Below, one piece after another: positions 606-63,137 of a DNA stretch of 64,000 nt; the stretch's first letter is position 1, and each line of letters begins with the position of its first letter. The DNA is taken from contig NZ_CH672413.1 of assembly GCF_000152705.1 (NCBI RefSeq), forward strand, positions 2,794,139 through 2,858,138. Direction: 5' to 3'. Both the position numbers and the translations under genes were made by a program. The DNA comes from Janibacter sp. HTCC2649. Its GTDB lineage: Bacteria > Actinomycetota > Actinomycetes > Actinomycetales > Dermatophilaceae. The notes beneath the pieces were generated by a model that was given only the letters and a program-made list of their open reading frames with translations, made no database searches and was not told the origin of the DNA.

Positions 606-713
606 GGTCAGGTCTCCTTGGGTCGGGGAAGTGTCGTGCTCGGTCCGACCACCGTAGGTCGCGTTGCGGACGAAACACTTCCGGTATGCCGTCCGGCGTG
701 CCATCGTTTCGTC

Positions 714-1712
714 GTGCCCTTCGATTCCGCCACGTCCGCAGAGTTGAGCCCCACCGCCCGCGCCCTGCTCACCCTCGAGGTGCTGCAGAACCGGCCCGGG
801 GTCACGGCCGGCGAGCTGGCTCGCCGGTTGGGGGTGACCGAACGCGCGACGCGACGACACATCGCGATCCTGCGTGAGGCCGGCATACCCGTCGAGTCGA
901 TGCGCGGACCGCACGGCGGCTACACGTTGGGTCGCGGCGCGGCCCTCGCCCCCGTCGTCTTCACCGAGACCGAAGCGCTCAGCCTCGTCATGGCCGTCAT
1001 CGACAGCCACCCCAGTGCCGCGAGCGCGACCGGCGCCGACGGTGAGGCCGACGCGGTGGGCTCCGCGCTCGACAAAGTCGTCCGGGCCCTGCCCCGGGCC
1101 GCCGGTCGAGAAGCCGCCGCCTTGCGCGAGCACGCCTGCGCCACACCGGATCGCTACCCGAGGCGGCCGGACCCGGCCACGACGAGCGCCCTCGTGGCCG
1201 CGAGCGCCGACCGCCACCAGGTGCGCATCACCTACGGCAGCGAGTCCGGCAAGACCTGGGAGGACGTCACCGATCCGTGGGCGGTCGTCGTCCGGCACAC
1301 CCGCTGGTACCTCCTGTGTCGCTCGCACCGGGCCGACGCCGTGCGCACCTATCGGATCGACCGGATCCGCGAGGTCGTCGACCTCGACGAGAGCTTCACG
1401 CCGCCGGCCGACCTCGACCCCGTCAGCTCCCTCGAGGAGCACCTCGGGATCGGCTGGGAGTTCGAGACGCGGGTCGTGTTCGACGTGTCTCTCACGGAGG
1501 CACAGCGGTGGGTGCACCCGGCCATGGGAGTCCTCGAACGGCATACCGACGGCTGTGTTCTCGTGGGCAGCACGAGCAACCCGACGATGTACGCCAGGGA
1601 GTGGCTGGCCCGCATTCCGCTGCCCCTGCGGGTCGAGGGCGGGCCGGAACTGGTCGACGCCATGAGGTTGGTTGCCGCGCAGTTGCAGGCCGCTGTGGCC
1701 CCCACCACCTGA
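714..1712 (+). CDS. HTH and WYL-domain transcriptional regulator
   Basis: A 332-aa cytoplasmic regulator with an N-terminal DeoR/HTH_11-like winged helix (about residues 15-62, LARRLGVTERATRRHIAIL) followed by a WYL domain containing the signature RWYLLCRS. WYL proteins in actinobacteria are ligand-responsive regulators, often of nucleic-acid stress or of a neighbouring enzyme. The start chosen is the GTG at 714 (VPFDSATSAELSP); the longer frame from 600 would run into the divergent hydrolase gene and begins with non-conserved residues. It is divergent from the hydrolase at 1-605, suggesting local control (inference). A hairpin spans its stop codon. The ligand is unknown. Confidence 0.82.
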   Translation: MPFDSATSAELSPTARALLTLEVLQNRPGVTAGELARRLGVTERATRRHIAILREAGIPVESMRGPHGGYTLGRGAALAPVVFTETEALSLVMAVIDSHPSAASATGADGEADAVGSALDKVVRALPRAAGREAAALREHACATPDRYPRRPDPATTSALVAASADRHQVRITYGSESGKTWEDVTDPWAVVVRHTRWYLLCRSHRADAVRTYRIDRIREVVDLDESFTPPADLDPVSSLEEHLGIGWEFETRVVFDVSLTEAQRWVHPAMGVLERHTDGCVLVGSTSNPTMYAREWLARIPLPLRVEGGPELVDAMRLVAAQLQAAVAPTT

Positions 1713-1722
1713 GCGTGGGGGC
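1698..1722 (+). terminator. hairpin terminator over the stop of the WYL gene
   Basis: An 8-bp GC-only stem, gcccccac (1698-1705) with gtgggggc (1715-1722), closes a 9-nt loop holding the TGA stop. No T-run follows, so this is a candidate intrinsic terminator of the U-tract-less actinobacterial type. Confidence 0.45.
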
Positions 1723-1833
1723 GCGACTTCCTGAATGTGGCACTCAGGTTCGGGGCGTCATACTGGATCAGGCGCCCCCTGCCCAGTGGGTGGTGTGCGC
1801 CCTTGTCCGCATCGTCTGCCCCGAAAGTTCTTC

Positions 1834-4062: not shown

Positions 4063-5322
4063 GTGGCCGTTCCCGCTGCAGTTCGTCAACGGGATCGGCC
4101 TCGCTTGGCCGACGCGAGCCTTGCCCCGGTCGCGCTCCTGGCGATGCTGCCGGTTCTTGCATCCCTGTGGAAGCAGGGGCCGTGCCTCCAACAGGGTTGG
4201 GGTGGAACGGAGCCGTTCTGGCGGTTCTGCTACTCCGACCTGGCCGTCGGGGTCCAGACGGCCGACGCGGAACGCGGGATCACGGCATACCTGTCGGGTG
4301 ACGTCCCTCTCGACCAACCGCCGCTGACGGGTTCGGTCGTCTCGCTCATCGCGGGACTCGGGCCGGGCACCGGTGCTCTCGCGACCCAACGGTGGGTTCT
4401 TGGTGTGTGGGCCGTCCTGGCACTCGTGGCGCTGGTCCTCATGGCGTGGTGGGTCCGGACGACGCCCGACCATCGCGGGGACGCCCTCCAGGTCGCCCTC
4501 GCCCCGGTCGCGGCCCTGACGATCCTGCTGTCACCCGACCTGCTCGGAGTCGTCCTCGCGACCGGCGGGCTGTGGGCGTGGAGCCGGCGACATCCCGCCC
4601 TGGCCGGTGCCCTGCTCGGAGCCGGGCTCATGGCGCGGACCTATCCCGCCTTGCTGCTCCTCGTCGTCGCCGTCCAGGCGTGGCGCACCGGACGAGAGCG
4701 CGAGCTGCCCCGGTTCGGTGGGGCGGCACTCGCGGCCGCCGCCGTCATCGCCCTGCCGTTCCTCATCCTGTCGCCGGGGACGATCACCCGGTCCTGGTCC
4801 GCGTGGTTCGACGCACCTGCCGGTCTGGGGTCGGTCTGGTACCTCCCGACCCTCGCGGGTAGCCCGTGGCCGGCGTCCGTCCTCACCGCCGTGGCGGTGC
4901 TCGGCGTCCTCGTCGCCGTCGTGCTCGCTGCCCTGCTCGTCCTCGGCGCTCCGTGGGCCCCGCGCCTGGGAGCCGTGGCCCTGCTCGCGGTTGCCGTGGT
5001 CCTCATCAGCGGCAAGTCGTTCCCCGTCCAGACCTCCCTGTGGCTCGTGCCGCTCGTGGCGCTCGCCGGGTTGCGCTGGCGCGACCACCTCGTGTGGGCG
5101 CTTGCGGAGGCGGTGCACTTCATGGCGGTCTGGCTCTATCTGAGCGGCCTGCAGAACCCCGACAAGTCCCTTCCACCCGGGTGGTATGCCGTGGCGCTCC
5201 TCCTGCGCGTCGGGGCCGTCGGCTTCCTGGCCGTGCGTGCGTGGCAGACCGCCACCGGGCCCGGCGACGACACCGATGACCTGGAGACGTCCGAGCGGCA
5301 GGCGTTCGACGCGCTGATTTAG
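4063..5322 (+). CDS. GT87/DUF2029-like polytopic membrane protein
   Basis: A 419-aa integral membrane protein with many hydrophobic segments (e.g. VLGVWAVLALVALVLMAWW, AALAAAAVIALPFLIL). The long loop after the first segment (about residues 33-90) and the overall layout resemble polyprenyl-phosphate-mannose-dependent mannosyltransferases (GT87, formerly DUF2029), which add sugars to envelope glycolipids. This gene class commonly sits between a PBP and rpsF in actinobacteria. The GTG start at 4063 lies 3 bp after the PBP stop. The catalytic role is inferred from family layout only; a structural membrane protein of cell division is an alternative. Confidence 0.65.
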   Translation: MAVPAAVRQRDRPRLADASLAPVALLAMLPVLASLWKQGPCLQQGWGGTEPFWRFCYSDLAVGVQTADAERGITAYLSGDVPLDQPPLTGSVVSLIAGLGPGTGALATQRWVLGVWAVLALVALVLMAWWVRTTPDHRGDALQVALAPVAALTILLSPDLLGVVLATGGLWAWSRRHPALAGALLGAGLMARTYPALLLLVVAVQAWRTGRERELPRFGGAALAAAAVIALPFLILSPGTITRSWSAWFDAPAGLGSVWYLPTLAGSPWPASVLTAVAVLGVLVAVVLAALLVLGAPWAPRLGAVALLAVAVVLISGKSFPVQTSLWLVPLVALAGLRWRDHLVWALAEAVHFMAVWLYLSGLQNPDKSLPPGWYAVALLLRVGAVGFLAVRAWQTATGPGDDTDDLETSERQAFDALI

Positions 5323-5366
5323 TTGTATGCCGTCCAGCCCGGTACCCTTGCCCAGTTACCAGTGCC

Positions 5367-5748: not shown

Positions 5749-5867
5749 GCCTCGTCTTCACCGACTCAACAGCGCAACCCAGCGACTCGTCGCTGACCCA
5801 GCTGCACGGCATACCTGAATTGCCCGTACCGCGTCACACTGCACCCAGACCAAAGGGGATCTGATCC

Positions 5868-8223: not shown

Positions 8224-10751
8224 ACGCGATGCCGCTCGACATCAATGACGACCCGCTGGACCGCAGCCGGTTCCCGCTCGACGAGTGGGCCCTGACCGAG
8301 ACCCGCTTCAACGCCGACGACCTCGGTGTCACCGAGTCGCTGTTCAGCGTCGGCAACGGCTACCTCGGACTGCGCGGCAACTACGAGGAGAGCCGCGACG
8401 CCCACGTGGACGGTTCCTACATCAACGGTTTCCACGAGACCTGGCCGATCACCCACGCCGAAGAGGCCTACGGCTTCGCCCGGGTCGGTCAGACCATCGT
8501 CAACATTCCCGACGCCAAAGTCATCCGCCTCTACGTCAACGACGAGCCGCTCCAGCTCTCGACCGCGGACCTCCTCGACTACAACCGCACGCTCGACTTC
8601 CGCACCGGCGTCCTGTCTCGCACCCTCCTGTGGCGCACGCCGAGTGGGACGCGGGTCGAGGTCAAGAGCACCCGCATGGTCTCGCTCAGCCAGCGCCACC
8701 TTGCCGTGATGACGTTCGAGGTCACCCTGCTCGACGGCAACGGTCCCGTGCAGATCTCCTCGCAGGTCCTCAACCGTCAGGACCTCCCCAAGGAGGGCCC
8801 CGAAGCCAAGAAGGGTGGCATCGCCGACCCGCGCAAGGCCGAGGCCTTCCGTGGACGCGTCCTCCTGCCCAAGGTCAGCGAGGGCGATCTCGAGACCGGT
8901 CGGCTGTGGTTGGGCTACCAGTGCGCCGACAGCGGCATGACCCTCGGACTCGTCACCGACCACACCCTCGAGACCGCGAACCCCTACCGCGCCACCGTCC
9001 ACACCGACGACGACTCGGTCAAGATGATCTACCGCATCCAGGCGCAGCAGGGCACGCCCATCACGCTGACCAAGCTCGTCTCGGCGCACACGGCCGACAG
9101 CGTCCCGCCGCGTGAGCTCCTCGACCGGTGCGAGCGCACCCTCGACCGGGTCACGGAGGAGGGTCTGCAGCACCAGTACGCCGAGCAGCGCTCCTGGCTC
9201 GACGGCTTCTGGCAGCGCGCCGACATCGAGATCCCGGGCCACCCCGCGATCCAGCAGGCGACGCGCTGGAACCTCCTGGCGCTCGCCCAGGCGTCCGCGC
9301 GCGCCGAGACCTACGGCATCCCCGCGAAGGGAGTGACCGGCTCCGGCTACGGCGGTCACTACTTCTGGGACACCGAGATCTACGTGATGCCGTTCCTCAC
9401 CTACACGATGCCGTATGCCGCCCGCAACGCCATGCGCTTTCGTCTCTCGTTGCTCGACTCGGCTCGGACCCGTGCGGGTGAGCTCTCGCAGAAGGGTGCG
9501 CTCTTCCCGTGGCGCACCATCAACGGCCACGAGGCCTCGGCGTACTACGCAGCCGGCACCGCGCAGTACCACATCGATGCCGACATCGCGTATGCCCTGA
9601 GCCAGTACGTCGGGGCCACCGGGGACACCGAGTTCCTCGACCGTGAGGCCGTCGACATCTTCGTGGAGACCGCGCGCCTGTGGGCCGACCTCGGGTTCTG
9701 GCGCATGCACCCGAACAAGGAGCGGACCTTCCACATCCATGGCGTGACCGGCCCGGATGAGTACACAGCGGTCGTCAACGACAACCTCTACACGAACGTC
9801 CTGGCCCGCTTCAACCTGCGGCGAGCCGTCGAGGCGGTGGAGGCGCTCGCGGAAGGCGACCCTGCGGCATACGCCCAAATGGTCCGAAGGACCGATCTGG
9901 AAGCCGACGAGATCACCGAGTGGAGCGACTGCGCCAAGGGCATGTTCATCCCGTTCGACGAGCACCTGGGCATCCACCCGCAGGACGACCACTTCCTCGA
10001 ACGGGAGATGTGGGACCTCGCGAACACGCCGTCGTCGGTGCGGCCGCTGCTGCTGCACCACCACCCGCTCGTGATCTATCGCTTCCAGGTGCTCAAGCAG
10101 GCCGACGTCGTGCTGGCCCTCTTCCTGCAGGGGGAGGACTTCACGCCGGAGGAGAAGCTCGCGGACTTCGAGTACTACGACCCGATCACCACGGGCGACT
10201 CGACGCTGTCGGCGGTCGTGCAGTCGATCATCGCGGCGGAGGTGGGCTACCAGGACCTGGCCTACCGCTACTTCCTGGCGGCGCTCTTCGTCGACCTCGC
10301 CGACCGTCACTCCAACACCGCCGACGGCGTGCACGTCGCCTCGACCGGTGGCGTGTGGAGCGCGTTGGTGTCGGGCTTCGGTGGGTTCCGTGACCTCGGC
10401 AGCGACGAGCACGAGGGTCAGTTCACGATCGACCCGCGGCTGCCGGTTGGGTGGGAGTCCCTGACCTATCGGTTGTGCCTGCGTGGGACTCGCGTGCGGG
10501 TCACCGTGCGGGCGAACGCGCTCGAGCTCGTCATCGAGGACGGCGACGAACCGCTGACGTTCTCGGTGCGAGGCACGTCGATCACGGTGACGGCGGCTGA
10601 GCCGGTGACGGTGGCGCTGGCCGATCAGGGGCCGCGCATCGCCGGGTCGCCGAAGGCTCCGAGCGAGATCGTCCGCGAGGACGGCACCGTGATCTCGAGC
10701 GTCGTTCCGACCGGAGACACCCGGCGTATGCCGGTTCCCACCGGCCACTGA
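8220..10751 (+). CDS. glycoside hydrolase family 65 (disaccharide phosphorylase-like)
   Basis: An 843-aa GH65 protein: N-terminal beta-sandwich (about 20-290), linker, (alpha/alpha)6 barrel (about 340-740), C-terminal beta domain. The catalytic acid is the Glu in GVTGPDEYTAVVNDN, and HGVTGPDEY is the family signature; WDTEIYVMPFLTY and LLHHHPL are phosphate- and substrate-site segments. Family members phosphorolyse trehalose, maltose, kojibiose or nigerose to beta-glucose 1-phosphate and glucose. The partner HAD gene fits this. Which disaccharide is used cannot be read from the sequence; trehalose or maltose is most likely. GTG start at 8220 overlaps the HAD stop. Confidence 0.9.
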   Translation: MNAMPLDINDDPLDRSRFPLDEWALTETRFNADDLGVTESLFSVGNGYLGLRGNYEESRDAHVDGSYINGFHETWPITHAEEAYGFARVGQTIVNIPDAKVIRLYVNDEPLQLSTADLLDYNRTLDFRTGVLSRTLLWRTPSGTRVEVKSTRMVSLSQRHLAVMTFEVTLLDGNGPVQISSQVLNRQDLPKEGPEAKKGGIADPRKAEAFRGRVLLPKVSEGDLETGRLWLGYQCADSGMTLGLVTDHTLETANPYRATVHTDDDSVKMIYRIQAQQGTPITLTKLVSAHTADSVPPRELLDRCERTLDRVTEEGLQHQYAEQRSWLDGFWQRADIEIPGHPAIQQATRWNLLALAQASARAETYGIPAKGVTGSGYGGHYFWDTEIYVMPFLTYTMPYAARNAMRFRLSLLDSARTRAGELSQKGALFPWRTINGHEASAYYAAGTAQYHIDADIAYALSQYVGATGDTEFLDREAVDIFVETARLWADLGFWRMHPNKERTFHIHGVTGPDEYTAVVNDNLYTNVLARFNLRRAVEAVEALAEGDPAAYAQMVRRTDLEADEITEWSDCAKGMFIPFDEHLGIHPQDDHFLEREMWDLANTPSSVRPLLLHHHPLVIYRFQVLKQADVVLALFLQGEDFTPEEKLADFEYYDPITTGDSTLSAVVQSIIAAEVGYQDLAYRYFLAALFVDLADRHSNTADGVHVASTGGVWSALVSGFGGFRDLGSDEHEGQFTIDPRLPVGWESLTYRLCLRGTRVRVTVRANALELVIEDGDEPLTFSVRGTSITVTAAEPVTVALADQGPRIAGSPKAPSEIVREDGTVISSVVPTGDTRRMPVPTGH

Positions 10752-10873: not shown

Positions 10874-12265
10874 ATGGCAGCGAAGACGACCCGCCCGGCA
10901 TACCGGTGCACCGAGTGTGGGTGGACAACGGTCAAGTGGGTCGGTCGTTGCGGTGAGTGCCAGGCCTGGGGCTCCGTGGCAGAGGTCGGTGCCGTCGCGG
11001 CCCGGACGGCGGCGGCGAAGTCGGTCGAGCGACCGGCCGTGCCCATCGGCGAGGTCGACGTCAGTCGGGCCGAAGCCCGGGGGACCGGCGTGCCCGAGTT
11101 CGACCGAGTCCTCGGTGGTGGGCTCGTGCCCGGTGCCGTCGTGCTCGTCGCGGGCGAACCCGGCATTGGCAAGTCGACGTTGCTCCTGGACGTGGCGGGG
11201 CGCGCTGCTCGTGGTGGCGAGCCTGGTCAGGAGCGACGCGTCCTCTACGTCAGTGGCGAGGAGTCGGCCGCCCAGGTGCGCAGCCGGGCCGAACGCATCG
11301 AGGCGATGGCCCGCACCCTCTTCCTCGCGTCCGAGACCGACCTCGCGACCGTGCTCGGCCAGATCGACCAGGTCGAGCCCGAGCTCGTCATCGTCGACTC
11401 CGTCCAGACGATCAGCAGCGCAGAGGTGGAGGGAGCGGCTGGCAACGTCTCGCAGGTGCGGGAGGTGGCCGCGAGTCTCATCGCGGTGGCCAAGGCGCGC
11501 GGCATCGCGGTGCTGCTCGTCGGACACGTCACCAAGGACGGCTCCATCGCGGGACCGCGCGTCCTCGAGCACCTCGTCGACGTCGTCGTGCAGTTCGAGG
11601 GCGACCGGCACAGCCGGCTCCGGCTCGTGCGCGCGGTGAAGAACCGCTACGGCCCCACCGACGAGGTCGGTTGTTTCGACCTGTCCGACATCGGCATCAC
11701 CGGGCTCGCCGACCCCAGTGGGTTGTTCCTGTCCAACCGCACCGCGGCCGTGCCCGGCACCTGCGTCACGGTGACCCTGGAAGGCCGGCGCCCGCTCGTC
11801 ACCGAGGTCCAGGCGCTCGTCGACCAGACCGAGATGCCCAACCCGCGCCGCGCCACCAGTGGGCTCGACTCCTCGCGCGTCGGCATGATCCTCGCCGTGC
11901 TGGGGACCCGGGCCAAGGCGCCCATCGGCCGCAAGGACGTGTTCGTCTCGACCGTGGGTGGCGTGCGCATCACCGAGCCCGCCGCCGACCTCGCCCTGAC
12001 GCTCGCGCTCGCGAGTGCCATCAACGACCAGCCCCTGCCCGTCGGCACGGTGGCGTTTGGCGAGGTGGGTCTCGCGGGTGAACTGCGGCCCGTCACCGGG
12101 GCGCATCGCCGCCTGGCCGAGGCGTCGCGACTGGGCTTCACGACGGCGATCGTGCCGCCCGGGGTCCTGGGCGGTGGGCCCGTGCCCGACGGGCTGCGCG
12201 TCATCGAGGTCTCGACGGTCCTCGAGGCCGTGACCATGACCGTCGTGCCTGTCGTCGCCCGCTGA
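10874..12265 (+). CDS. radA: DNA repair protein RadA
   Basis: A 463-aa RadA/Sms: N-terminal C4 zinc finger (YRCTECGW...GRCGECQAWG, residues ~10-40), RecA-like ATPase with Walker A GEPGIGKSTLL and Walker B LVIVDSVQT, the RadA motif KNRYG (KNRFG in most homologues), and a C-terminal Lon-like domain. It is a helicase that drives branch migration of recombination intermediates. The ATG at 10874 (MAAKTTRPAYRC) is the start; an upstream open frame is the translated palindrome. It lies just before disA, a conserved pairing in which RadA modulates DisA. Confidence 0.96.
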   Translation: MAAKTTRPAYRCTECGWTTVKWVGRCGECQAWGSVAEVGAVAARTAAAKSVERPAVPIGEVDVSRAEARGTGVPEFDRVLGGGLVPGAVVLVAGEPGIGKSTLLLDVAGRAARGGEPGQERRVLYVSGEESAAQVRSRAERIEAMARTLFLASETDLATVLGQIDQVEPELVIVDSVQTISSAEVEGAAGNVSQVREVAASLIAVAKARGIAVLLVGHVTKDGSIAGPRVLEHLVDVVVQFEGDRHSRLRLVRAVKNRYGPTDEVGCFDLSDIGITGLADPSGLFLSNRTAAVPGTCVTVTLEGRRPLVTEVQALVDQTEMPNPRRATSGLDSSRVGMILAVLGTRAKAPIGRKDVFVSTVGGVRITEPAADLALTLALASAINDQPLPVGTVAFGEVGLAGELRPVTGAHRRLAEASRLGFTTAIVPPGVLGGGPVPDGLRVIEVSTVLEAVTMTVVPVVAR

Positions 12266-12420
12266 CCGGCGCCAACCGCTGACCCAGCCACAAGGTGACC
12301 TGGCTGTGATTTGGTCACGCAACCGGACGGCATACCCGCGCCGTTAGACTCGCCCAAAGCACCGGAGCACCTTGCCTGTGCTTCGGGGACGCCAAGTGCA
12401 ACGAGATCGAAGGGACACAC

Positions 12421-16568: not shown

Positions 16569-16596
16569 GGGACCCAGTATCCCGGCATACGCAAGA

Positions 16597-21761: not shown

Positions 21762-21787
21762 GACTTTTTGCCGGGTATGCCGGGTGC

Positions 21788-51133: not shown

Positions 51134-52197
51134 GCGAGGTCCTGCGCGTTGGCGTCGTGGGTGTCGGGATCATGGGCGCCGACCACGCGGAGCGCCTCGT
51201 CCGACGGACCGCTCACGCGCGTCTCGTTGCGGTCGCCGATCCGGACGAGGCTCGCGCCAAGGAGCTGGCCGGGCAGTTCGCCGGGGTGCGCGCAGTCGGT
51301 GACGCGCTCGAGCTCATCGGTGCCGACGACGTCGACGCCGTGATCCTGGCGTCGCCGGGCTTCGTGCACGAGGAGCAGGTGCTCGCCTGCCTCGCAGCCG
51401 GCAAGCCGGTGCTGTGCGAGAAGCCCTTGACCATGGACTCGGAGTCGTCGCTGCGCCTTGTCCGGGCCGAACGAGACCTCGGGCGCCGGCTCATCCAGGT
51501 CGGGTTCATGCGCCGCTTCGACCCCGAGTACGCCCAGCTCCGATCCGTGCTGGCGGGCGGGAGTCTCGGCCGAACTCTGCTGCTGCACAACGTCCATCGC
51601 AACGCGTCTGTCCCGAACACCGACTTCCGCTCCGAGATGATCGTGCGCGACAGCCTCGTCCACGAGGTCGACGTCGCCCGCTTCCTCTTCGGCGAGGAGG
51701 TTGCGGCCGTCCAGGTGTTGTCGCCCGCGTCGACGTCACACGCGTCGGCCGGTGTCGTCGACCCACAGGTCGCGATCTTCACGATGGCCGGCGGCGGCAT
51801 CGTCACGAACGAGGTCTTCGTGAACAGCCAGGTCGGCTACGAGGTGAGGTGTGAGGCGGTGGCGGAGCGTGGCTCCGTCATCATCGGTCAGCCCTCGACC
51901 GGCCTCTACTCGACCGCACTCGCCGTCGACGGCCTCGGCCGCTGGGGTGGCTCGGTCCCGGCGGACTACCGGACGAGGTTCGCCACGGCATACGACCTCG
52001 AAGTCCAGGCGTGGGTCGACTCGGCCCTCCAAGGCGAGTCCGTCGGACCTTCCGTCTGGGACGGGTATGCCGCCACGGCAGTCTCGACCGCCGGCATGGC
52101 CTCGCTCGCCAGCGGCGAGCGCGTCACCGTCGACCTCGTCGACAGACCCGGACCCACAACCCCTGCCTCCAGAACCCCCACGAAGGAACAATCATGA
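51130..52197 (+). CDS. second inositol-type dehydrogenase (Gfo/Idh/MocA)
   Basis: A 355-aa dehydrogenase with Rossmann motif VGVVGVGIMGADHAERL, catalytic CEKPLTMD, QVGFMRRFDPEY and DSLVHEVDVARFLFGEE. The last region, with MRRFDP, is typical of IolG from actinobacteria and Bacillus, so this may be the true myo-inositol 2-dehydrogenase and the gene at 44336 a scyllo- or D-chiro-inositol enzyme (inference). ATG overlaps the iolD stop by 4 bp. Confidence 0.85.
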   Translation: MSEVLRVGVVGVGIMGADHAERLVRRTAHARLVAVADPDEARAKELAGQFAGVRAVGDALELIGADDVDAVILASPGFVHEEQVLACLAAGKPVLCEKPLTMDSESSLRLVRAERDLGRRLIQVGFMRRFDPEYAQLRSVLAGGSLGRTLLLHNVHRNASVPNTDFRSEMIVRDSLVHEVDVARFLFGEEVAAVQVLSPASTSHASAGVVDPQVAIFTMAGGGIVTNEVFVNSQVGYEVRCEAVAERGSVIIGQPSTGLYSTALAVDGLGRWGGSVPADYRTRFATAYDLEVQAWVDSALQGESVGPSVWDGYAATAVSTAGMASLASGERVTVDLVDRPGPTTPASRTPTKEQS

Positions 52198-53696
52198 GCG
52201 CACCCACCCGCATCACCCACCTCATCGCCGGCCAGTCCTGGGACGGCACTGCGGAGCGGACCAGCGCCGTCTACAACCCCGCCACGGGCGAAGAGACCGG
52301 TGCCCTCGACCTGGCCTCGGCCGAGCTCGTCGGTGAGGCGGTCGCGAAGGCCAAGGAGGCGTGGGCCTCGGAGTGGGGCAGCTCCTCGCTCGCCAAGCGC
52401 ACCCAGGTGCTGTTCCGCTTCCGCGAGCTCCTCAACGAGAAGAAGGAGGACATTGCTGCCCTCATCACCGCCGAACACGGCAAGGTCCTCTCCGACGCTC
52501 TGGGCGAGGTGACTCGAGGTCTCGAGGTTGCCGAATTCGCCTGCGGCATACCGCATCTCCTCAAGGGCGGCTACACCGAGAACGCTTCCACGAAGGTTGA
52601 CGTCTATTCGATCCGCCAGTCGCTCGGCGTCGTCGCCGTCATCTCGCCGTTCAACTTCCCGGCCATGGTGCCGTTGTGGTTCGTGCCCGTCGCGATCGCC
52701 TGTGGCAACGCCGTCGTCCTCAAGCCCAGCGAGAAGGACCCGTCGGCAGTCGTCGCCGTGGCCGAGCTGTGGCGCGAGGCCGGGCTGCCCGACGGGGTCA
52801 TGAACGTCGTCCACGGTGACAAGGAAGCCGTCGACGCCCTGCTCACCCACTTTGATGTGCGCGCCGTTTCCTTCGTCGGGTCGACGCCGATCGCGCGCTA
52901 CGTCTACGAGACGGGCACGGCTCACGGCAAGCGGGTCCAGGCACTCGGCGGGGCCAAGAACCACATGCTCGTTCTCCCCGACGCCGACCTCGACCTCGCG
53001 GCCGATGCTGCCGTCAACGCCGGCTTCGGCTCGGCCGGCGAGCGGTGCATGGCGATCTCGGCCCTCGTCGCGGTCGAGCCGATCGCCGACGAGCTCATCG
53101 AGAAGATCAAGGACCGCGTCGGCAAGCTCGTCACCGGCGACGGCACGCGCGGCACCGACATGGGGCCGCTCGTGACCAAGCAGCACCGCGACAAGGTGGC
53201 GTCCTACCTCGACGCCGGGGTCGAGTCCGGGGCCGAGCTCGTCGTCGACGGGCGCGACGTCGACATCGACGCCGACGGGGAGGGCTTCTTCCTCGCCCCC
53301 ACCCTGTTCGACAAGGTCTCGAGCGACATGTCGATCTACACGGATGAGATCTTCGGGCCGGTGCTCTCCGTCCTGCGGGTCCAGTCCTACGACGAGGGAC
53401 TCGAGCTCATCAACTCCAACCCCTATGGCAACGGCACCGCGATCTTCACCAACGACGGTGGGGCCGCCCGGCGCTTCCAGAACGAGGTCGAGGTCGGCAT
53501 GGTCGGCATCAACGTCCCGATCCCGGTGCCGATGGCCTACTACTCCTTCGGCGGGTGGAAGAACTCCCTCTTCGGCGACAGCCACGCCCACGGCATGGAG
53601 GGCGTCAACTTCTTCACCCGCGGCAAGGTCGTCACGTCCCGCTGGCTCGACCCGTCACACGGTGGCCTCAACCTCGGCTTCCCCCAGAACACCTGA
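52194..53696 (+). CDS. iolA: methylmalonate/malonate-semialdehyde dehydrogenase (CoA-acylating)
   Basis: A 500-aa ALDH-fold enzyme, MmsA type. The catalytic Cys is in SAGERCMAISALVAVE and the N-terminal cofactor site in VISPFNFPAMVPLWFVPVAI; VGSTPIARYVYE gives the NAD/CoA loop. It turns malonate semialdehyde to acetyl-CoA and CO2, the last step of inositol breakdown, and also serves valine catabolism. ATG 52194 overlaps the previous stop by 3 bp, RBS aaggaac. Last gene of the operon. Confidence 0.92.
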   Translation: MSAPTRITHLIAGQSWDGTAERTSAVYNPATGEETGALDLASAELVGEAVAKAKEAWASEWGSSSLAKRTQVLFRFRELLNEKKEDIAALITAEHGKVLSDALGEVTRGLEVAEFACGIPHLLKGGYTENASTKVDVYSIRQSLGVVAVISPFNFPAMVPLWFVPVAIACGNAVVLKPSEKDPSAVVAVAELWREAGLPDGVMNVVHGDKEAVDALLTHFDVRAVSFVGSTPIARYVYETGTAHGKRVQALGGAKNHMLVLPDADLDLAADAAVNAGFGSAGERCMAISALVAVEPIADELIEKIKDRVGKLVTGDGTRGTDMGPLVTKQHRDKVASYLDAGVESGAELVVDGRDVDIDADGEGFFLAPTLFDKVSSDMSIYTDEIFGPVLSVLRVQSYDEGLELINSNPYGNGTAIFTNDGGAARRFQNEVEVGMVGINVPIPVPMAYYSFGGWKNSLFGDSHAHGMEGVNFFTRGKVVTSRWLDPSHGGLNLGFPQNT

Positions 53697-54297: not shown

Positions 54298-55488
54298 TCA
54301 GCCGCGGCTGCCTGCCGCGTCACGCGCCGGCTGGCCCGCGTCGAAGTAGGCGACGACCTCGGCCGGGAGCTCGGGCACCCGCAGCGCCGAACCGTCACCG
54401 CGCAGCGACTGGGTGGCGATGACGCCTGCGGCCACGGCCTCACGCGCTGCCACCGGACTCGTGTCGGTCAGGCCACCCTCGACGGCGAACCGCAGGAACT
54501 CGGCGATGAGCTTGGGGTCGGCACCACCGTGGCCGCCCTCGCCGTCAGCGATCGTGATGACCTGGTCGGGCTCGGCGCGCCCCTCGGAGCGCTTGGTCCA
54601 CACGTGGATCTCCTCGCCGGGGCCGTCGCCGAGGTTCTCGATCCGACCGGCCGTCCCGATGACGGTGTAGTTGCGCCAGTAGTCGGGCGTGAAGTGGCAC
54701 TGCTGGTAGGACGCGAGCACTCCGTTGTCGAGGCGCATCTGCATCATCGAGATGTCCTCGACGTCGACGATCGGGTTGAGCCCCTTCTGTTCCAGCGGCG
54801 GCCAGTTGTCGAGCGAGAACCAGTCGAACATCCGCTGGTCGGAGTTGTCGCGACGGTCGGTCACCTGGCCATAGACGGCGAGATCGCCGATCGCTGACAC
54901 CGTTCGGGTGTAGCCGCCAGCGAGCCAATGAACGACGTCGATGTCGTGAGCACCCTTCTGCAACAGCAGACTTGTTGAGTTGGCGCGCTCGGCGTGCCAG
55001 TCCTTGAAGTAGTAGTCGCCACCGTGTCCGACGAAGTGACGGCACCAGACCGCCTTCACCTCGCCGATGGTGCCGGCCTCGATGACCTCACGCATCTGGC
55101 GGATGACGGGCATGTGCCGCATGTTGTGCCCGACGTAGAGACGCGTTCCGGTCTCGTATGCCGTGGTCAACAGTGCGTCGGTCGCGTCCAGTGTGACGTC
55201 GAGAGGCTTCTCGCAGAACGTGGGTATGCCGGCCCGCAGCGTTGCGATGCCGACGCTCGCGTGCTGGTTGTCCGGGGTGAGGACGAGCACGGCGTCGGGT
55301 CGGCTGGCGATGAGCTCGTCGAGGCTTTCGGTGACGACGGCGTCGGGGAGCCGGGTGGCCGCATCGGCTCGACCCTTCTCGCTCGTGTCGCACACGATGC
55401 TGACCCGGGCACCCGTGGTGTTCTCGACGTGGCGGTAGAGGCCTGCCCGGAGTCCGAAACCGACGATTCCGACGTTGAGCTGTTGCAT
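54298..55488 (-). CDS. Gfo/Idh/MocA dehydrogenase of the LacI regulon
   Basis: A 396-aa oxidoreductase. NAD(P) motif VGIVGFGLRAGLYRHV, catalytic FCEKPLDVT, and KGAHDIDVVHWLAGG. It is longer than iolG and has an HFVGHGGDYYFKDWHAER insert seen in dehydrogenases acting on glycosides or amino sugars. ATG 55488 with RBS aaaggg; a near-palindromic TTAATCGATTCA operator lies 23 bp upstream, so it belongs to the regulon of the adjacent LacI protein. Substrate unknown. Confidence 0.82.
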   Translation of the reverse strand: MQQLNVGIVGFGLRAGLYRHVENTTGARVSIVCDTSEKGRADAATRLPDAVVTESLDELIASRPDAVLVLTPDNQHASVGIATLRAGIPTFCEKPLDVTLDATDALLTTAYETGTRLYVGHNMRHMPVIRQMREVIEAGTIGEVKAVWCRHFVGHGGDYYFKDWHAERANSTSLLLQKGAHDIDVVHWLAGGYTRTVSAIGDLAVYGQVTDRRDNSDQRMFDWFSLDNWPPLEQKGLNPIVDVEDISMMQMRLDNGVLASYQQCHFTPDYWRNYTVIGTAGRIENLGDGPGEEIHVWTKRSEGRAEPDQVITIADGEGGHGGADPKLIAEFLRFAVEGGLTDTSPVAAREAVAAGVIATQSLRGDGSALRVPELPAEVVAYFDAGQPARDAAGSRG

Positions 55489-56642: not shown

Positions 56643-56681
56643 GGTGAGGTGTGCCGAAACGGTGAGTCACGGCATACCCCA
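56643..56681 (-). terminator. hairpin after the solute-binding protein gene
   Basis: gtgaggtgtgccg (56643-56655) with cggcataccccac (56669-56681), 11 of 13 Watson-Crick and the other two G-U; 13-nt loop. The right arm holds a GGCATAC heptamer. It separates the transporter transcript from lacI. Confidence 0.6.
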
Positions 56682-56695: not shown

Positions 56696-58354
56696 TCAGA
56701 GTTTGAAGATCTTGACGTCGCTCGGGAGGACGGCCTCGTACTCCTTGCGGATCGTGTCGCCGGCGTCCTTGCGCCAGCGGGCGACTGCCGCATCGAGGTC
56801 CGTGAGTGGTGCGCGCCCGGTGACGATGTCGATGACCTTGTCGTCGAGCGCGGTCCGTGCGGGAGGGCCGAGCTTGGTGTTGGCGTCGGAGTACGTCCCG
56901 GCCGTCGCGTTGCGCCAACCCATCTCGATCAGCTTCTCCTCCTGCTGGTGGACGTACTCGATCGAGTCGGCGTGGCCCGGGAAGAACAGGACGTTCTCCG
57001 GCGAGCTCATGATGTTGAGCGCGCTGCGGACGCCCGGGATGTTCTTGAGTCCGGCCGCGTTGAGGACCGGGCTGCCGTCCGCGTCGGGGGCGAAGTCCTG
57101 GGCCTGGGTGCCGAAGTTCTTCTTGAGGTACTCGGTCGTGCCGAACGGTGCTGACAGCCAGTCCATGAGCGCGAGCAGCTCGCGGATCTTGGCCTCGTTC
57201 GTGGTCTTGAAGGCGGTGAAGCCGACCGTGCCGTAGCCCATGTTGTGGATCGGGGTGATCCCGGACTCGAAGGCGAACGGGATGAGGAGCTCGGTCTCGG
57301 CGTCCGGCTTGGCGTCCCAGAACTTGGAGGCTGCGTGCGGACCGACCTCGACCAGGGCGCCGAGGCTTCCGTTGGCGACGCGCGGCACCGCGTCGGTGAT
57401 GTTGGCATCGGGATAGAACGCGCCCGCCTTGAAGAGCTGCGCGGCGAAGTCGACGGACGCCTTGAACTGCTCGGTCTCGTAGCGGTGGACGAGCTTGCCG
57501 TTTCCGGTGGCCATCCAGTTGCCGAGGACACCGTGCCACTGCGAAATCATGTGGACGACGTTGATGTATGCCGGTTCGAGGGCGTAGCGGTTGCCCTTGG
57601 GGTTGTTGATCTCCTTGACCTTGTCGAGGAACTCGGCGCCCGAGGTGCACTGGAGGCCGTCGACCTGGGCCCACACGGCCTTGTTGCCGAACATGACCTG
57701 ACCAAAGGGCGTCGACGGAATCGGTGCACCCCAGATCTTGCCGTTGACGACCGACGTCTTCCACGACTCCGACTTCAGCGCCGCGAGGTTGGGGTACTCG
57801 AGCACCGCGTCACCGCTGAGGTACTTCGTGAGGTCCTGGAACTTTGCCTCGAGCATCGCGCCGACGTTGGGGATCCCCTGGTTCGGGGGAACCCACATGA
57901 GGTCGGGCAGGTCGTTCGAGGCGAGGACGGTCGCGAACTTGGCGGGGTAGGTGTCGTCGACGACGATCTGCACGTCGAGCTCGCCGCCGAGGGCCTTGTT
58001 GAGGCGGCCCCAGTAGGGGTTGTCCTTCATGCCCGGAGCCACGGCGTCGAAGGTCTGCGACAGCGCTGTGACGCGGCCCTTGAGCGGCGGACCCTTCGTT
58101 GACGCGACGGGGCTGGGCATCTTGCGGAAGCCGGCCTGGAGGCCCTCGGCGTTGCCCGGGAAGTCGGCCTTCGCGCCGGTGAACTCCTTGTAGGTGGGGA
58201 GCTTGAGCGCCGCCGAGTCGGACGCGCCTCCGGCGCTGCCGGGCTTGGGTCCGCGGCTGCAGGAGGCGAGGCTCACGCCGGCGGTGGCCAGTCCCATGGC
58301 GCCGAGGAAGTTCCGGCGGTTGAGGCTGGATGAGGGGGTGGATGAACTCGACAT
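56696..58354 (-). CDS. sugar ABC transporter, solute-binding lipoprotein (family 1)
   Basis: A 552-aa extracellular binding protein. The N-terminus has a twin-arginine motif (NRRNFLGAMGLATAGVSLAS) and ends in a lipobox LASC, so it is exported folded and lipid-anchored. The length and layout fit the LplA/YtcQ type of oligosaccharide-binding proteins that pair with LplB/LplC permeases. Ligand unknown; uronate or plant-type oligosaccharides are common for relatives. ATG 58354 with an RBS in gagagg; the longer frame is rejected because the signal sequence starts here. Confidence 0.87.
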   Translation of the reverse strand: MSSSSTPSSSLNRRNFLGAMGLATAGVSLASCSRGPKPGSAGGASDSAALKLPTYKEFTGAKADFPGNAEGLQAGFRKMPSPVASTKGPPLKGRVTALSQTFDAVAPGMKDNPYWGRLNKALGGELDVQIVVDDTYPAKFATVLASNDLPDLMWVPPNQGIPNVGAMLEAKFQDLTKYLSGDAVLEYPNLAALKSESWKTSVVNGKIWGAPIPSTPFGQVMFGNKAVWAQVDGLQCTSGAEFLDKVKEINNPKGNRYALEPAYINVVHMISQWHGVLGNWMATGNGKLVHRYETEQFKASVDFAAQLFKAGAFYPDANITDAVPRVANGSLGALVEVGPHAASKFWDAKPDAETELLIPFAFESGITPIHNMGYGTVGFTAFKTTNEAKIRELLALMDWLSAPFGTTEYLKKNFGTQAQDFAPDADGSPVLNAAGLKNIPGVRSALNIMSSPENVLFFPGHADSIEYVHQQEEKLIEMGWRNATAGTYSDANTKLGPPARTALDDKVIDIVTGRAPLTDLDAAVARWRKDAGDTIRKEYEAVLPSDVKIFKL

Positions 58355-58418: not shown

Positions 58419-59342
58419 TCAGCCCTTGACTGCTCCGGTGATGACGCCCTTGGTGAAGTGGCGCTGGAGGAACGGATAGAGCAGGCAGATGGGGATGAGA
58501 GCGATGACGACGACGGCCATCTTGAGCGACTGCGGGGGCGCCGTGGATCCGACGCCGAGCTGGTCGGCGGCGACCGATGAGCCCTGGATGACATAGCTGC
58601 GCAGGATGAGCTGGACCGGCCAGAGGTTCTGGTCGTTCACGTAGAGCAGGGCGTTGAAGAAGGAGTTCCAGAAGCCGACGGCATAGAACAGACCGACGAC
58701 GGCGACGACGGCCTTGGACAGCGGCAGCACGATCTTCCAGAGGATCTGCCAGTCGGAGGCGCCGTCCATCTGGGCGCTCTCGATGAGCTCCTTGGGGATG
58801 TTCATGAAGAACGCGCGCATGACGACGAAGTTGAACGCCGCGAACACTCCCGGGAGGATCAGCGACCACACCGTGTCGAGCAGACCGAGCTGACGCACCA
58901 TGAGGAACGACGGGATGAGCCCCGGCGCGAAGAGCAGGGTGAAGAGCACGCCCATGACCACGGGCCGACCGAAGAGCACCTTGCGACTCGTGGCGTAGGC
59001 CATCGTGATCGTGACGAACAGTGCGATGAGAGTGCCGACGACGGTGATGAAGAGACTGACTCCCAACGCCCGGAACATCAGTGGTCCGGTGAGCAGTGCC
59101 TTGTATGCCGCGAGCGTGGGGTGCGTGGGCCACAGGACGTAGCCGCCGGCCTCGACGAGCTCCTTGTCGTCAGCGAGCGAGGTCGAGACGACGACGAGGA
59201 TCGGGATGATGATGGCGACCGCGAAGAGGCCGAGGAAGATGCTCTTGAAGGTCTGAAGGCCCGGCGAGGCCTTCTCCTTCCAGACGGGTCGCCTGCTGTC
59301 ACGGCTGAGCTTGCGTTCGATGGTTGCTGAGGGAACGGTCAT
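58419..59342 (-). CDS. ABC transporter permease (LplC/YtcP-like)
   Basis: A 307-aa inner-membrane permease with six spans. The EAA loop that meets the ATPase is ELIESAQMDGASDWQILWKI. It starts with a basic cytoplasmic stretch and first span IFLGLFAVAIIIPILVVVST. The ATPase gene is not in the window; CUT1 transporters of this type often share a general MsmK/MsiK ATPase encoded elsewhere. It starts 7 bp after the partner permease stop. Confidence 0.9.
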   Translation of the reverse strand: MTVPSATIERKLSRDSRRPVWKEKASPGLQTFKSIFLGLFAVAIIIPILVVVSTSLADDKELVEAGGYVLWPTHPTLAAYKALLTGPLMFRALGVSLFITVVGTLIALFVTITMAYATSRKVLFGRPVVMGVLFTLLFAPGLIPSFLMVRQLGLLDTVWSLILPGVFAAFNFVVMRAFFMNIPKELIESAQMDGASDWQILWKIVLPLSKAVVAVVGLFYAVGFWNSFFNALLYVNDQNLWPVQLILRSYVIQGSSVAADQLGVGSTAPPQSLKMAVVVIALIPICLLYPFLQRHFTKGVITGAVKG

Positions 59343-60601: not shown

Positions 60602-60642
60602 AAAAAAATCCCGCACCACACGGCATACGCCGGGGTGCGGGA
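60602..60642 (-). terminator. intrinsic terminator of the desaturase gene, with T-tract
   Basis: On the minus strand a 9-bp stem (60609-60617 with 60634-60642, tcccgcacc/ggtgcggga) with a small inner stem is followed by seven T residues (complement of 60602-60608). This is the only terminator in the window with a clear T-run. Confidence 0.88.
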
Positions 60643-60666
60643 CCTTCGTGAAGCGGAACGCGAGGG

Positions 60667-62001
60667 TCAGTAGCGGCGACCCGCGCCACCCTTGCCCTTG
60701 AGTGCCTTCTTGGCCGCCCGCAGGACCGTGGCGCGACGCGTCGTGCCCTCGCGCTTCGGCGGGAGCGACAGCTCGACGACCTTCCAGTAGACGCCGCCGA
60801 CCTGCTTGGCCAGCGAGCCACTGACGTACTTGAGGTCGTTGCGCTGCATGAGGTCGCGGATCTTCGGCGCGATCTCGGAGTAGCGGTTGCTCGGCATGTC
60901 CGGGAAGAGGTGGTGCTCGATCTGGTGGCTCAGGTTGCCCGACATGAGGTGCATGGCCTTCGAGCCGTGGATGTTGCCCGACCCGAGCATCTGGCGGAGG
61001 TACCACTCACCGCGGGTCTCGCCCTCGATCGACGCCTTCTCGAACGTCTCGATGCCGGGCGGGAAGTGGCCGCAGATGATGACCGTGTTGCTCCACACGT
61101 TGCGGACGAGGTTCGCGACGATGTTGGCGGAGAGCGTGTGCGGGGCAGAGCCGGTGAACGTCGCCGCGGCCATCGCCGGGTGGACGACATAGTCCTTGGT
61201 CATCTGCGCCTTGATCTTGGCGATCGTCTGCTTGGCGTTCGCGTGGAACTCGGCCTTCTCCTCCTCGCTCATGCGCTTCTTCTTGGCGAGGTAGCCACCG
61301 AGCTCGAGGTCGTAGGCCGCGATGGAGTACTCGAACAGGAGCGCGTTGGCGACGTGCCAAACCGGCTGGAACAGGTAGAACAGGCTCCACCGCTGGTCCT
61401 GGTCGACGCGCAGGATGCCGTAGCCGAGGTCATTGTCGCGACCGAGCACGTTGGTGAAGGTGTGGTGGATCTGGTTGTGGCTGTGCTTCCACTGCTCGGC
61501 CGGGCTGGCGTGGTCCCATTCCCAGGCGGTCGAGTGGATCTTGGGGTCACGCATCCAGTCCCACTGGCCGTGCATGATGTTGTGCCCGAGCTCCATGTTC
61601 TCGAGGATCTTGGCGACGGAGAGGCCGGCCGTGCCGAGCCACCACATCGGGCGCACGCCCTTGACCTTGACGCCGGAGAAGAGGAGCGCAGCTCGGCTGC
61701 CCATCTCCAGGTAGCGCTGGGCCTTGATGACCTTGCGGATGTATGCCGCGTCGGCAGCTCCGCGTGAATCCATCACTTCCGCACGGATCGCGTCGAGCTC
61801 GCGCCCGATCTCCTCGATCTGCTCGGGGGAGAGGTGCGAGGCGGGGTTCGGGCTGCCCGACTTCTTGAACTCGGGGCGCTGCGGGCGCGGCTCGGCACTC
61901 GTGACGCTGAGGCGCGAATTCATGCTGGGCGCAGGCATGTTGGGGTTCTCGGTGCTGGGTGCAGTCGTGCGGTTCTGGATGCGTTCAGGGGCGAGGGTCA
62001 T
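60667..62001 (-). CDS. membrane fatty-acid desaturase (DesA3-like)
   Basis: A 444-aa acyl-lipid/acyl-CoA desaturase. Three His boxes hold the di-iron centre: GHNIMHGQWDW, HNQIHHTFTN and HQIEHHLFPD. Hydrophobic pairs flank them (ALLFSGVKVKG..., IICGHFPPG). The N-terminal ~75 residues are a polar extension. It should put a delta-9 double bond in stearoyl/palmitoyl chains, using electrons from the reductase encoded 26 bp upstream, the same pair as Rv3229c-Rv3230c. Fluidity control is its likely role. Confidence 0.9.
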   Translation of the reverse strand: MTLAPERIQNRTTAPSTENPNMPAPSMNSRLSVTSAEPRPQRPEFKKSGSPNPASHLSPEQIEEIGRELDAIRAEVMDSRGAADAAYIRKVIKAQRYLEMGSRAALLFSGVKVKGVRPMWWLGTAGLSVAKILENMELGHNIMHGQWDWMRDPKIHSTAWEWDHASPAEQWKHSHNQIHHTFTNVLGRDNDLGYGILRVDQDQRWSLFYLFQPVWHVANALLFEYSIAAYDLELGGYLAKKKRMSEEEKAEFHANAKQTIAKIKAQMTKDYVVHPAMAAATFTGSAPHTLSANIVANLVRNVWSNTVIICGHFPPGIETFEKASIEGETRGEWYLRQMLGSGNIHGSKAMHLMSGNLSHQIEHHLFPDMPSNRYSEIAPKIRDLMQRNDLKYVSGSLAKQVGGVYWKVVELSLPPKREGTTRRATVLRAAKKALKGKGGAGRRY

Positions 62002-62027
62002 GGTGATCTCCTTGGTCTCTCGCGGGG

Positions 62028-63137
62028 TCAGAGTTCGATGTCGCAGCGACCGGCGACGGCGGTGACGCAGGTCTGGATCTTCACGTTCTCGCCGTCTTCG
62101 CCACTCGTGATCTCGCCGTTGCGCAGGTCGCGCACGGACCCTTCACGCATGGTGACGACGCAGCCGAAACAGATGCCCATGCGGCAACCACTCGGCATGA
62201 GGACACCGGCCGCTTCTCCGGCGTCGAGGATCGGGGTGCCACCGTCGGCCTCGAGGGTGACCTTGGTCTTGGTGAAGGTGACGGTGCCACCCTCGCCGGG
62301 CTCGACCACGCTGGGTCGGAAGCGTTCGACGTGCAGCCGGTCGGCGAGTCCCGCTGTCTCCCAATGGGATTCAGCAGCATCGAGCAACCCAGTCGGGCCA
62401 CAGACCCAGACCTCGCGCTCGCGCCAGTCCGGCACGAGCCGGTCCAGGGAGGCGAGGTCGAGGACCCCGGCCACGTCGTCGTGGTTCTCGTGCAGCGCAA
62501 GGCGGCTCGCGGCGGCATACCCGCGAAGTTCGTCACGGAAGATGACGTCCGCCTCGGTGGGGGCGCAGTGGATGTGCGCGACGTCGGCGAGGTCACCCAG
62601 GTGGTTGCGCAACATGCCGATGACGGGCGTGATGCCCGAGCCGGCGGTGATGAACAGCGCCTTGGCGGGCAGCGTCTCGGGGAGGGTGAACTCACCGGTC
62701 GCCTGGTCGAGCATGACGAGGGTGCCGGGGGCGATGGCGCGCACGAGCTGGTTGCTCACCTTGCCGTCGGGGATGGCCTTGGTGGTGAAGCTGATGAGGC
62801 CATCGCCGGTGTCGGCACGGTGGGTGAGGGAGTAGGCACGCCAGAGGCGGACGCCGTCGACGTCGATGCCGACGCGGATGTACTGGCCCGGGCGGTGGCC
62901 GGCCCAACCGCGACCCGGACGGATCGTGATGGTGGCGGCGTCAGCGGTCTCGGGCGTGATGGACACGATGCGACCGCGCAGGTCGGCGCCGGCGCGCATC
63001 GGGTCGATGAGGTCGAGGTAGTCGGAGGGCACGAGCGGGGTGGCCAGTGCGTGGGCGACCTTGCGTGCGCCGTCGAGGAGACCGGCGAGACGAGGCGTAT
63101 GCCGGGTCGCGGGGTTTCGGTTCAGGGTTGCGGTCAC
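62028..63137 (-). CDS. flavin and 2Fe-2S oxidoreductase, electron donor to the desaturase
   Basis: A 369-aa reductase. FAD domain with RPGQYIRVGI (quoted from GHRPGQYIRVG) and RAYSLTHR; NADPH domain with FITAGSGITPVIGML; C-terminal plant-type ferredoxin domain with Cys in SGCRMGICFGC and later QTC (C-x4-C-x2-C...C). Matches mycobacterial Rv3230c, which feeds DesA3. GTG start at 63137 has no Shine-Dalgarno, so the mRNA may be leaderless. Precedes the desaturase gene and is co-transcribed. Confidence 0.9.
   Translation of the reverse strand: MTATLNRNPATRHTPRLAGLLDGARKVAHALATPLVPSDYLDLIDPMRAGADLRGRIVSITPETADAATITIRPGRGWAGHRPGQYIRVGIDVDGVRLWRAYSLTHRADTGDGLISFTTKAIPDGKVSNQLVRAIAPGTLVMLDQATGEFTLPETLPAKALFITAGSGITPVIGMLRNHLGDLADVAHIHCAPTEADVIFRDELRGYAAASRLALHENHDDVAGVLDLASLDRLVPDWREREVWVCGPTGLLDAAESHWETAGLADRLHVERFRPSVVEPGEGGTVTFTKTKVTLEADGGTPILDAGEAAGVLMPSGCRMGICFGCVVTMREGSVRDLRNGEITSGEDGENVKIQTCVTAVAGRCDIEL

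Follow-up and report, generated by a model that had tools for sequence, protein, structure and literature searches.

Among bacteria that mark their own DNA for uptake, copies of the DNA uptake sequence (DUS) of Neisseria pair face to face in hairpins, and the uptake signal sequence (USS) of Pasteurellaceae occurs about once per kb, consists of a core with weak A/T flanks and is spaced more evenly than random. HIP1 (highly iterated palindrome 1) of cyanobacteria, a palindromic 8-mer, is abundant genome-wide. PMC3630211 calls the requirement for an uptake sequence unique to Neisseria and Pasteurellaceae, and PMC2346458 describes a favoured orientation of known uptake sequences within genes and, for Pasteurellaceae, a bias towards gene ends. 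In Micrococcus luteus, the tad-1 and tad-2 clusters jointly contribute to the competence pilus, according to PMC4322843. Here we analyze the word CGGCATAC, which is strongly over-represented in a 64-kb stretch of DNA (positions 2794139-2858138 of contig C1 of genome G000, hereafter the window, 68.0% GC) and which probably serves one actinobacterial family as a DUS/USS-type self-recognition mark.

The face-to-face hairpins of Neisseria and the copy density, weak A/T flanks and even spacing of Pasteurellaceae all recur here. As described in PMC3630211, the ComP-dependent DUS of Neisseriaceae is likewise a short asymmetric word with thousands of copies and single-base dialects tracking lineages, but it belongs to a different phylum and envelope type, its word is unrelated, and its pilus genes are of type IVa rather than of the Tad type (type IVc); no ComP was recognised here, no search aimed at ComP having been made. 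The Pasteurellaceae USS also has an unrelated word, a Gram-negative host and another pilus, and its gene-end bias (PMC2346458) is absent here. Closest in machinery is the Flp/Tad-dependent transformation of M. luteus, with two tad clusters, comEA and comEC in a similar gene order; however, a term search of two M. luteus papers, PMC4322843 among them, returned none of uptake sequence, uptake signal, DUS or USS, and 29 Micrococcaceae loci hold zero or one CGGCATAC. With HIP1 the motif shares the genome-wide abundance of one 8-mer, but CGGCATAC is non-palindromic (its reverse complement is GTATGCCG) and has lineage dialects.

The preliminary description of the window had counted about 59 copies of the heptamer GGCATAC, and an exact recount agrees (59 copies, 29 on the plus and 30 on the minus strand). 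It had expected roughly 7 copies at about 69% GC; dinucleotide shuffles give a mean of 2.08 and a maximum of 6 (n = 100), and the excess is upheld. Markov models of order 1, 2, 3 and 4 expect 2.1, 3.4, 5.3 and 20.5 copies. The order-5 model, which had been proposed as a check, expects 58.2 and cannot discriminate, because GGCATA (64 copies) and GCATAC (60 copies) occur almost exclusively within the motif, so that the model already contains it. The heptamer is real, but the core is one base longer, as 58 of the 59 copies extend to CGGCATAC; the base immediately 5′ of this core is never T in the window. Counts were controlled with the reversed word of CGGCATAC, CATACGGC. The possibility raised earlier, that the excess might be missing from the remainder of the genome, does not hold: the 4,235,068-base genome G000 contains 3,031 GGCATAC (1,518/1,513 by strand) versus 247 reversed words, and 2,982 CGGCATAC (1,496 forward, 1,486 reverse) versus 59 for the reversed control, i.e. 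about one per 1.4 kb. The motif excess is thereby confirmed as real and genome-wide, and the original observation was right and understated. An Rfam scan of the window gave no match.

To examine how copies sit in genes, we used the window plus 17 stretches of 20 kb from G000 (404 kb in total, three tiny contigs left out): 14 taken at 200-kb steps of C1 between 0.4 and 3.2 Mb, one from the comEC locus, plus L132 and L133, which were picked for gaps in the motif listing. Genes were called by a home-made gene finder, and codon counts leave out L132 and L133. Out of 293 motif copies, 216 lie in genes and 77 outside, where 47 are expected. The frame independence claimed earlier stands insofar as all six frames are used, but the preference is strong: Ala-Tyr (GCA TAC) and Tyr-Ala (TAT GCC) hold 165 of the 216 in-gene copies, Gly-Ile (with ATA) and Met-Pro 45, and the two remaining frames 6. 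The codons involved are rare in the background (ATA 0.8%, GCA 8%, TAT 18%), while the pairs that make up the motif exceed expectation (GCA TAC, 83 vs 20.5; TAT GCC, 108 vs 27.2; GGC ATA, 27 vs 1.8). As many as 27 of the 34 ATA codons in the sampled genes lie inside the motif, which bears out the earlier suggestion that the use of ATA points to selection on DNA. Similarly, tyrosine in the context G-TA.-GCC-G is encoded by TAT in 84 of 94 cases, compared with 260 of 1,853 elsewhere. The choice of rare synonymous codons at positions that make up the motif supports selection at the DNA level. Most one-base neighbours of the motif do not exceed expectation; CGGCCTAC (39 vs 15.6), which contains a common codon pair, clearly does. 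Recognition therefore appears to involve all eight bases, and the copies leave no visible cloud of decay.

The arrangement of the copies is equally distinctive. Strand totals in 16 sampled pieces are 144/147 (heterogeneity chi-square 4.8), and together with the genome-wide balance they bear out the absence of strand bias noted earlier, skew being judged without locating the replication origin. Spacing is more regular than random, with variance/mean ratios of 0.86, 0.73 and 0.78 in 1-, 2- and 4-kb bins (16 pieces, L132 and L133 left out). Eleven motif pairs face each other at most 40 bp apart, where 2.6 are expected; the other orders, with the same expectation, give 2, 1 and 0 (409 sites; the 25 stretches, 534 kb in all, include five Knoellia loci homologous to the window, so that the pairs are not all independent). 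Two hairpins in the window have motif arms, at 18968/18990 (−46 kcal/mol) and 28024/28038 (−42 kcal/mol), whereas at 56671 the opposite arm is one base off the motif; the terminator arms proposed earlier at 18961, 28013 and 56643 are accordingly hairpin arms at the first two sites and part of an imperfect hairpin at the third. Around 74 non-coding copies, A is favoured at −11 (frequency 0.51) and at −1 (0.46), and T reaches 0.22-0.39 across +15 to +18; the base level is about 0.16.

When window sites were aligned to the five Knoellia loci, the motif was kept in 37 of 60 comparisons (11/15, 7/15, 4/6, 6/9 and 9/15), compared with 28-35% of background 8-mers, while 15 of the 52 motif sites in the other Knoellia loci are not motif in the window. 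These comparisons indicate that the copies are maintained, with turnover. With regard to possible depletion in recently acquired DNA, L132 has no copies and L133 two per 20 kb, both pieces having been picked for their gaps. The motif-free L132 (G000:C1:150001-170000) contains a further tad-like cluster and large membrane proteins, and is perhaps a conjugative or integrative element.

The copies in the window are listed below as coordinates of the GGCATAC heptamer. All rows are based on exact word search; those in hairpins also on folding. Some positions given earlier differ from the motif starts by 1-28 bp (44584 for 44585, 18961 for 18968, 28013 for 28024 and 56643 for 56671), and 18961, 28013 and 56643 may be hairpin starts rather than motif starts. 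The earlier statement that every unit of an 86-bp repeat carries the motif is correct for both units, though the repeat comprises only 1.9 copies.

684..690, minus, motif copy
882..888, plus, motif copy
1540..1546, plus, motif copy
4284..4290, plus, motif copy
5184..5190, minus, motif copy
5325..5331, minus, motif copy
5808..5814, plus, motif copy
9413..9419, minus, motif copy
9590..9596, minus, motif copy
9866..9872, plus, motif copy
10726..10732, minus, motif copy
10897..10903, plus, motif copy
12329..12335, plus, motif copy
13583..13589, minus, motif copy
16526..16532, minus, motif copy
16584..16590, plus, motif copy
18695..18701, minus, motif copy
18968..18974, minus, motif copy, hairpin left arm (word search and folding)
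18990..18996, plus, motif copy, hairpin right arm (word search and folding)
21629..21635, minus, motif copy
21703..21709, plus, motif copy
21775..21781, minus, motif copy
24918..24924, minus, motif copy
25071..25077, plus, motif copy
27133..27139, plus, motif copy
28024..28030, minus, motif copy, hairpin left arm (word search and folding)
28038..28044, plus, motif copy, hairpin right arm (word search and folding)
29036..29042, minus, motif copy
30196..30202, plus, motif copy
36516..36522, minus, motif copy
36669..36675, minus, motif copy
36873..36879, plus, motif copy
38827..38833, minus, motif copy
39070..39076, plus, motif copy
41188..41194, minus, motif copy
41998..42004, plus, motif copy, 86-bp repeat unit 1
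42084..42090, plus, motif copy, 86-bp repeat unit 2
43425..43431, plus, motif copy
43728..43734, plus, motif copy
43773..43779, minus, motif copy
44585..44591, plus, motif copy
46143..46149, minus, motif copy
46298..46304, plus, motif copy
47995..48001, minus, motif copy
48558..48564, plus, motif copy
49624..49630, minus, motif copy
50368..50374, plus, motif copy
51987..51993, plus, motif copy
52065..52071, minus, motif copy
52545..52551, plus, motif copy
55156..55162, minus, motif copy
55224..55230, minus, motif copy
56671..56677, plus, motif copy, one arm of imperfect hairpin (word search and folding)
57566..57572, minus, motif copy
59103..59109, minus, motif copy
60622..60628, plus, motif copy
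61741..61747, minus, motif copy
62514..62520, plus, motif copy
63097..63103, minus, motif copy

The motif is a property of a family, taken here as group f1 of the tool used (186 genomes, 53 genera), in which the named loci span Intrasporangiaceae, Ornithinimicrobiaceae, Dermacoccaceae and Dermatophilaceae. Four words were counted in each genome, and carriers were classified by hand at thresholds of at least 100 copies per Mb for CGGCATAC, CGGCATTC and CCGCATAC and at least 600 per Mb for CGGCATCC, which has a higher background. By this classification a word is present in about 116 of the 186 genomes, and at least one carrier occurs in 33 of the 53 genera. CGGCATAC dominates across the family, and the other words are one-letter dialects. 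CGGCATCC replaces it in g17 (G024, 3,816 copies; G071, 3,838), g26 (G033, 3,949) and g54 (G082, 4,480; G083, 3,619), and both words occur in G084 and G085. CGGCATTC is dominant in G020 (3,135, plus 1,025 CGGCATAC) and secondary in G092 (730), and CCGCATAC is the main word of genus g20, with 511-1,204 copies in four genomes (1,204 in G027). Classed as motif-less are genus g2, despite a moderate CGGCATCC excess (1,336 vs 310 reversed in G009), and g51 and g19, where CGGCATAC is 2-5 times the control but below 100 per Mb.

Among the named loci, each represented by one locus of up to 21.5 kb, CGGCATAC is in excess in Knoellia, Terrabacter, Intrasporangium, Phycicoccus elongatus, Segeticoccus, Serinicoccus, Metallococcus and Arsenicicoccus. 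Dialects appear in a Phycicoccus metagenome-assembled genome (CGGCATTC, 28 vs 0.8) and in Humibacillus sp. DSM 29435 (CGGCATCC, 17 vs 1.6), and the Flexivirga locus has CGCCATAC and CGTCATAC alongside CGGCATAC. Loci from two Janibacter, Austwickia and some Phycicoccus hold zero or one CGGCATAC each, as do the 29 Micrococcaceae loci, and some related loci of similar GC content show no motif excess. Outside the family, none of 386 genomes of the class reaches 100 copies per Mb (highest found, about 51), nor does any of 22 genomes of the same order (highest about 62; this set partly overlaps the 386). Genome G497 from another family (f45/g117) has 170 CGGCATAC versus 27 reversed words, a small excess outside the family.

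Phylogeny of RadA provides a frame for this distribution. The window encodes RadA/Sms (10772-12265, plus strand, 502.7 bits), which in other bacteria aids integration of transforming DNA. It is 94% identical to RadA of Knoellia sp. Soil729 and groups with five Knoellia in the tree (support 100/100). Of the tree's 81 rows, the 34 on the far side (among them Streptomyces, Cellulomonas, Kineococcus and Micrococcaceae) include no motif carrier, and the remaining 47 comprise rows of both kinds; in all, the label 'none' has to change 9 times. We therefore read the pattern as an old gain in the family followed by several losses. A contig binned as Myxococcota (L013) holds 13 CGGCATAC copies and encodes the same RadA as Segeticoccus; the contig is probably mis-binned actinobacterial DNA.

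Several weaker words were considered as well. G065 has only 37 CGGCATAC, compared with 1,251-1,660 in four congeners, and GGTCTAC is mildly enriched in it (73 vs 17 reversed in 140 kb; L126, L190, L191, L248-L251), which may be a dialect switch or a codon effect. CGGCGTAC shows a small excess in G059 (47 vs 11.7) and G030 (29 vs 7.2). Neither CGGCGTAC nor GGTCTAC is claimed as a further dialect, since codon pairs could explain both. Ten further motif-less genera, as well as G118 and G141, were screened in pools of 40-120 kb. No word there approached the excess of the motif in G000 (215 vs 9); the strongest were CCCCTTCG in G123 (49 vs 6.1 in 60 kb; L130, L276, L277) and CGTACGCC in G031 (42 vs 7.6). 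The CCCCTTCG/CGAAGGGG excess is also seen in Janibacter terrae L028 (17 vs 2.6), and perhaps reflects terminator hairpins with UUCG loops.

If CGGCATAC is an uptake sequence, its carriers should possess the corresponding machinery. A comEC above the Pfam cut-off was found in 180 of the 186 family genomes. In G000 a comEA-like gene lies directly 5′ of comEC (7838-8779 and 8776-11157 of L131), and comEA matches were present in all 48 fetched comEC-bearing loci, with or without motif, while three stretches not placed at comEC held neither gene. Names of comEA and tad genes come from sequence reading, gene order and BLAST rather than family scans. G000 has several T2SSE-type ATPase loci: two of them, tad-A at about 2.005-2.009 Mb of C1 and tad-B at about 1.367-1.372 Mb of C1 close to prfB, resemble M. 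luteus tad-1 and tad-2 in their arrangement, and further loci lie at 3.866 and 0.153 Mb of C1. From gene order and pilin type we infer a putative one-to-one correspondence of tad-A and tad-B with the M. luteus clusters.

When the 186 genomes were searched with six aligned tad-B Flp pilins, flp-B was detected in 167, the misses including four motif-bearing but incomplete or fragmented assemblies (G076, G083, G149, G199). A check of the tad-B ATPase in 17 selected genomes, which mostly lack flp-B, showed it missing from G058, G022, G073, G086, G014, G114, G021, G127 and G128 (paralogues only, 31-40%) and reduced to a decayed remnant in G125; these ten genomes are all motif-less. At the level of genera, tad-B is lacking in 5 of 20 motif-less genera and in none of 33 motif genera (one-sided Fisher test taking genera as independent, p = 0.005). 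The tad-B locus is interrupted or decayed in 5 of 28 selected loci: inside tadA in L218 (G008) and L229 (G006), between tadC and tadF in L223 (G033), by about 30 kb between tadC and flp in L185 (G118), and as remnants in L219 (G125). Mobile elements are known to disrupt competence genes in other bacteria, and the tad-B interruptions may be a new case. Beyond the breaks there is one motif copy in 9.5 kb of G008, one in 6.9 kb of G006 and none in 5.9 kb of G033, which is low, though these are small numbers from inserts of undefined extent. G118 has 19 motif copies versus 3,681 in its congener G119, and its comEC match is in two frames; loss of the tad-B pilins in this genome was dropped as a candidate when a genome search placed flp-B about 30 kb from tadABC. 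A short comEC in G141 was likewise rejected as a broken gene, because the match ends near a contig edge (C11, 8,504 bases).

The likeness to uptake sequences thus rests on copy number, strand balance, selection, spacing, hairpin pairs, dialects and machinery. We propose that the motif would be bound at the cell surface by a protein belonging to the competence (Tad) pilus or to its partners, and that DNA of the cell's own kind would be preferentially taken up and then passed through ComEA/ComEC. More frequent import and recombination of motif-bearing DNA would make copies accumulate, the dialect would shift when the receptor changed its specificity, and the motif would erode once the pilus was lost. 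A number of observations weigh against this proposal. Within genes, orientation is balanced (112 same vs 104 opposite among the 216 copies), and so are the gene halves (50/61 and 51/52), with no gene-end bias, although such preferences are a reported habit of uptake sequences and not a defining feature. Decaying copies might be expected, yet one-mismatch neighbours are mostly not in excess. ComEC occurs in motif and motif-less genomes alike, and 15 motif-less genera retain flp-B; the machinery is therefore at most necessary. In 11 of the 180 genomes comEC is split into two or three pieces, and 7 of these bear the motif while 4 do not. G008 (2,535 copies), G006 (2,444) and G033 are motif-rich although tad-B is interrupted, so that recent loss must be assumed. 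The p-value rises to 0.024 if g26 is counted as lacking tad-B: its genome G033 has tadA, tadB and tadC but inserted DNA in place of flp-B, which was not found, yet contains 3,949 CGGCATCC. No receptor emerged when tad-B Flp, TadE1, TadE2 and TadF from 24-25 loci were compared: no column is private to the CGGCATCC dialect, represented by three loci, one with the two TadE proteins swapped; the 5-9 private columns per tad-B protein in the CCGCATAC dialect are uninformative, because they come from two genomes of one genus. Finally, no documentation of natural transformation of Knoellia was found in the open-licence literature. The association between tad-B and the motif is real but loose.

Alternative explanations have to account for the same observations. 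A by-product of codon or codon-pair preference or of mutation bias could be suspected from the 165 in-gene copies in two favoured frames, but it is highly improbable and is refuted by the synonymous-codon counts: the codons are otherwise rare, copies are denser outside genes, most one-base neighbours lack an excess, and so do related loci of similar GC content. The preliminary description had suggested a DNA-level signal without naming an uptake sequence. Selection on DNA was borne out, while a replication or segregation signal is disfavoured because strands are balanced and spacing is even, and a plain methylation target is insufficient given the roughly 40- to 50-fold excess, the one-letter dialects and the absence without the tad-B pilus. 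A broader form of that suggestion, in which a chromosomal protein that plays no part in uptake binds or methylates the motif (HIP1-like enrichment, or an orphan methyltransferase or a nucleoid or segregation protein), is unlikely. Thousands of evenly spaced copies could serve chromosome organisation, with HIP1 as a precedent for an abundant motif, and copies show neither the in-gene orientation nor the gene-end preference of known uptake sequences. However, the word is non-palindromic and without strand bias, whereas segregation words such as KOPS (FtsK-orienting polar sequences) are oriented, and its one-letter dialects across genera and absence in lineages without tad-B fit such a site poorly.

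A Chi-like recombination signal, by which CGGCATAC would regulate an end-resection nuclease of the AdnAB or RecBCD type and dialects would track changes in the enzyme, is quite unlikely. It would fit a short, asymmetric, very frequent and DNA-selected word, and Chi words do differ between lineages. In contrast to E. coli Chi, which is strongly oriented with replication, the motif is equally distributed between strands, both in the genome and over the 16 pieces, and a Chi-like role predicts neither the facing hairpin pairs nor the tie to tad-B loss.

An uptake sequence has not been reported for Actinomycetota in the open-licence literature searched, including a search for the word itself. It is rather likely that the motif represents the first uptake-sequence system in Gram-positive (monoderm) bacteria, with family-wide one-letter dialects, read by a Tad (type IVc) competence pilus, independent of the two known cases and lost with the pilus. 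If so, it would be a third, independent case, in another phylum and with another pilus, implying that self-labelled DNA uptake evolves repeatedly, and the origin, dialect change and loss of uptake sequences could be traced over dozens of genera. The motif would also predict which strains of the family are transformable, and with what tag, and could serve as a probe for finding the receptor (for the M. luteus context, see PMC12153270).

Apart from the motif, the window encodes on its minus strand (29143-34458) a 1,771-codon protein whose ExeM/NucH extracellular endonuclease domain (475.7 bits, cut-off 300) precedes a 5′-nucleotidase-like part, a predicted secreted DNase in an organism that may itself take up DNA.

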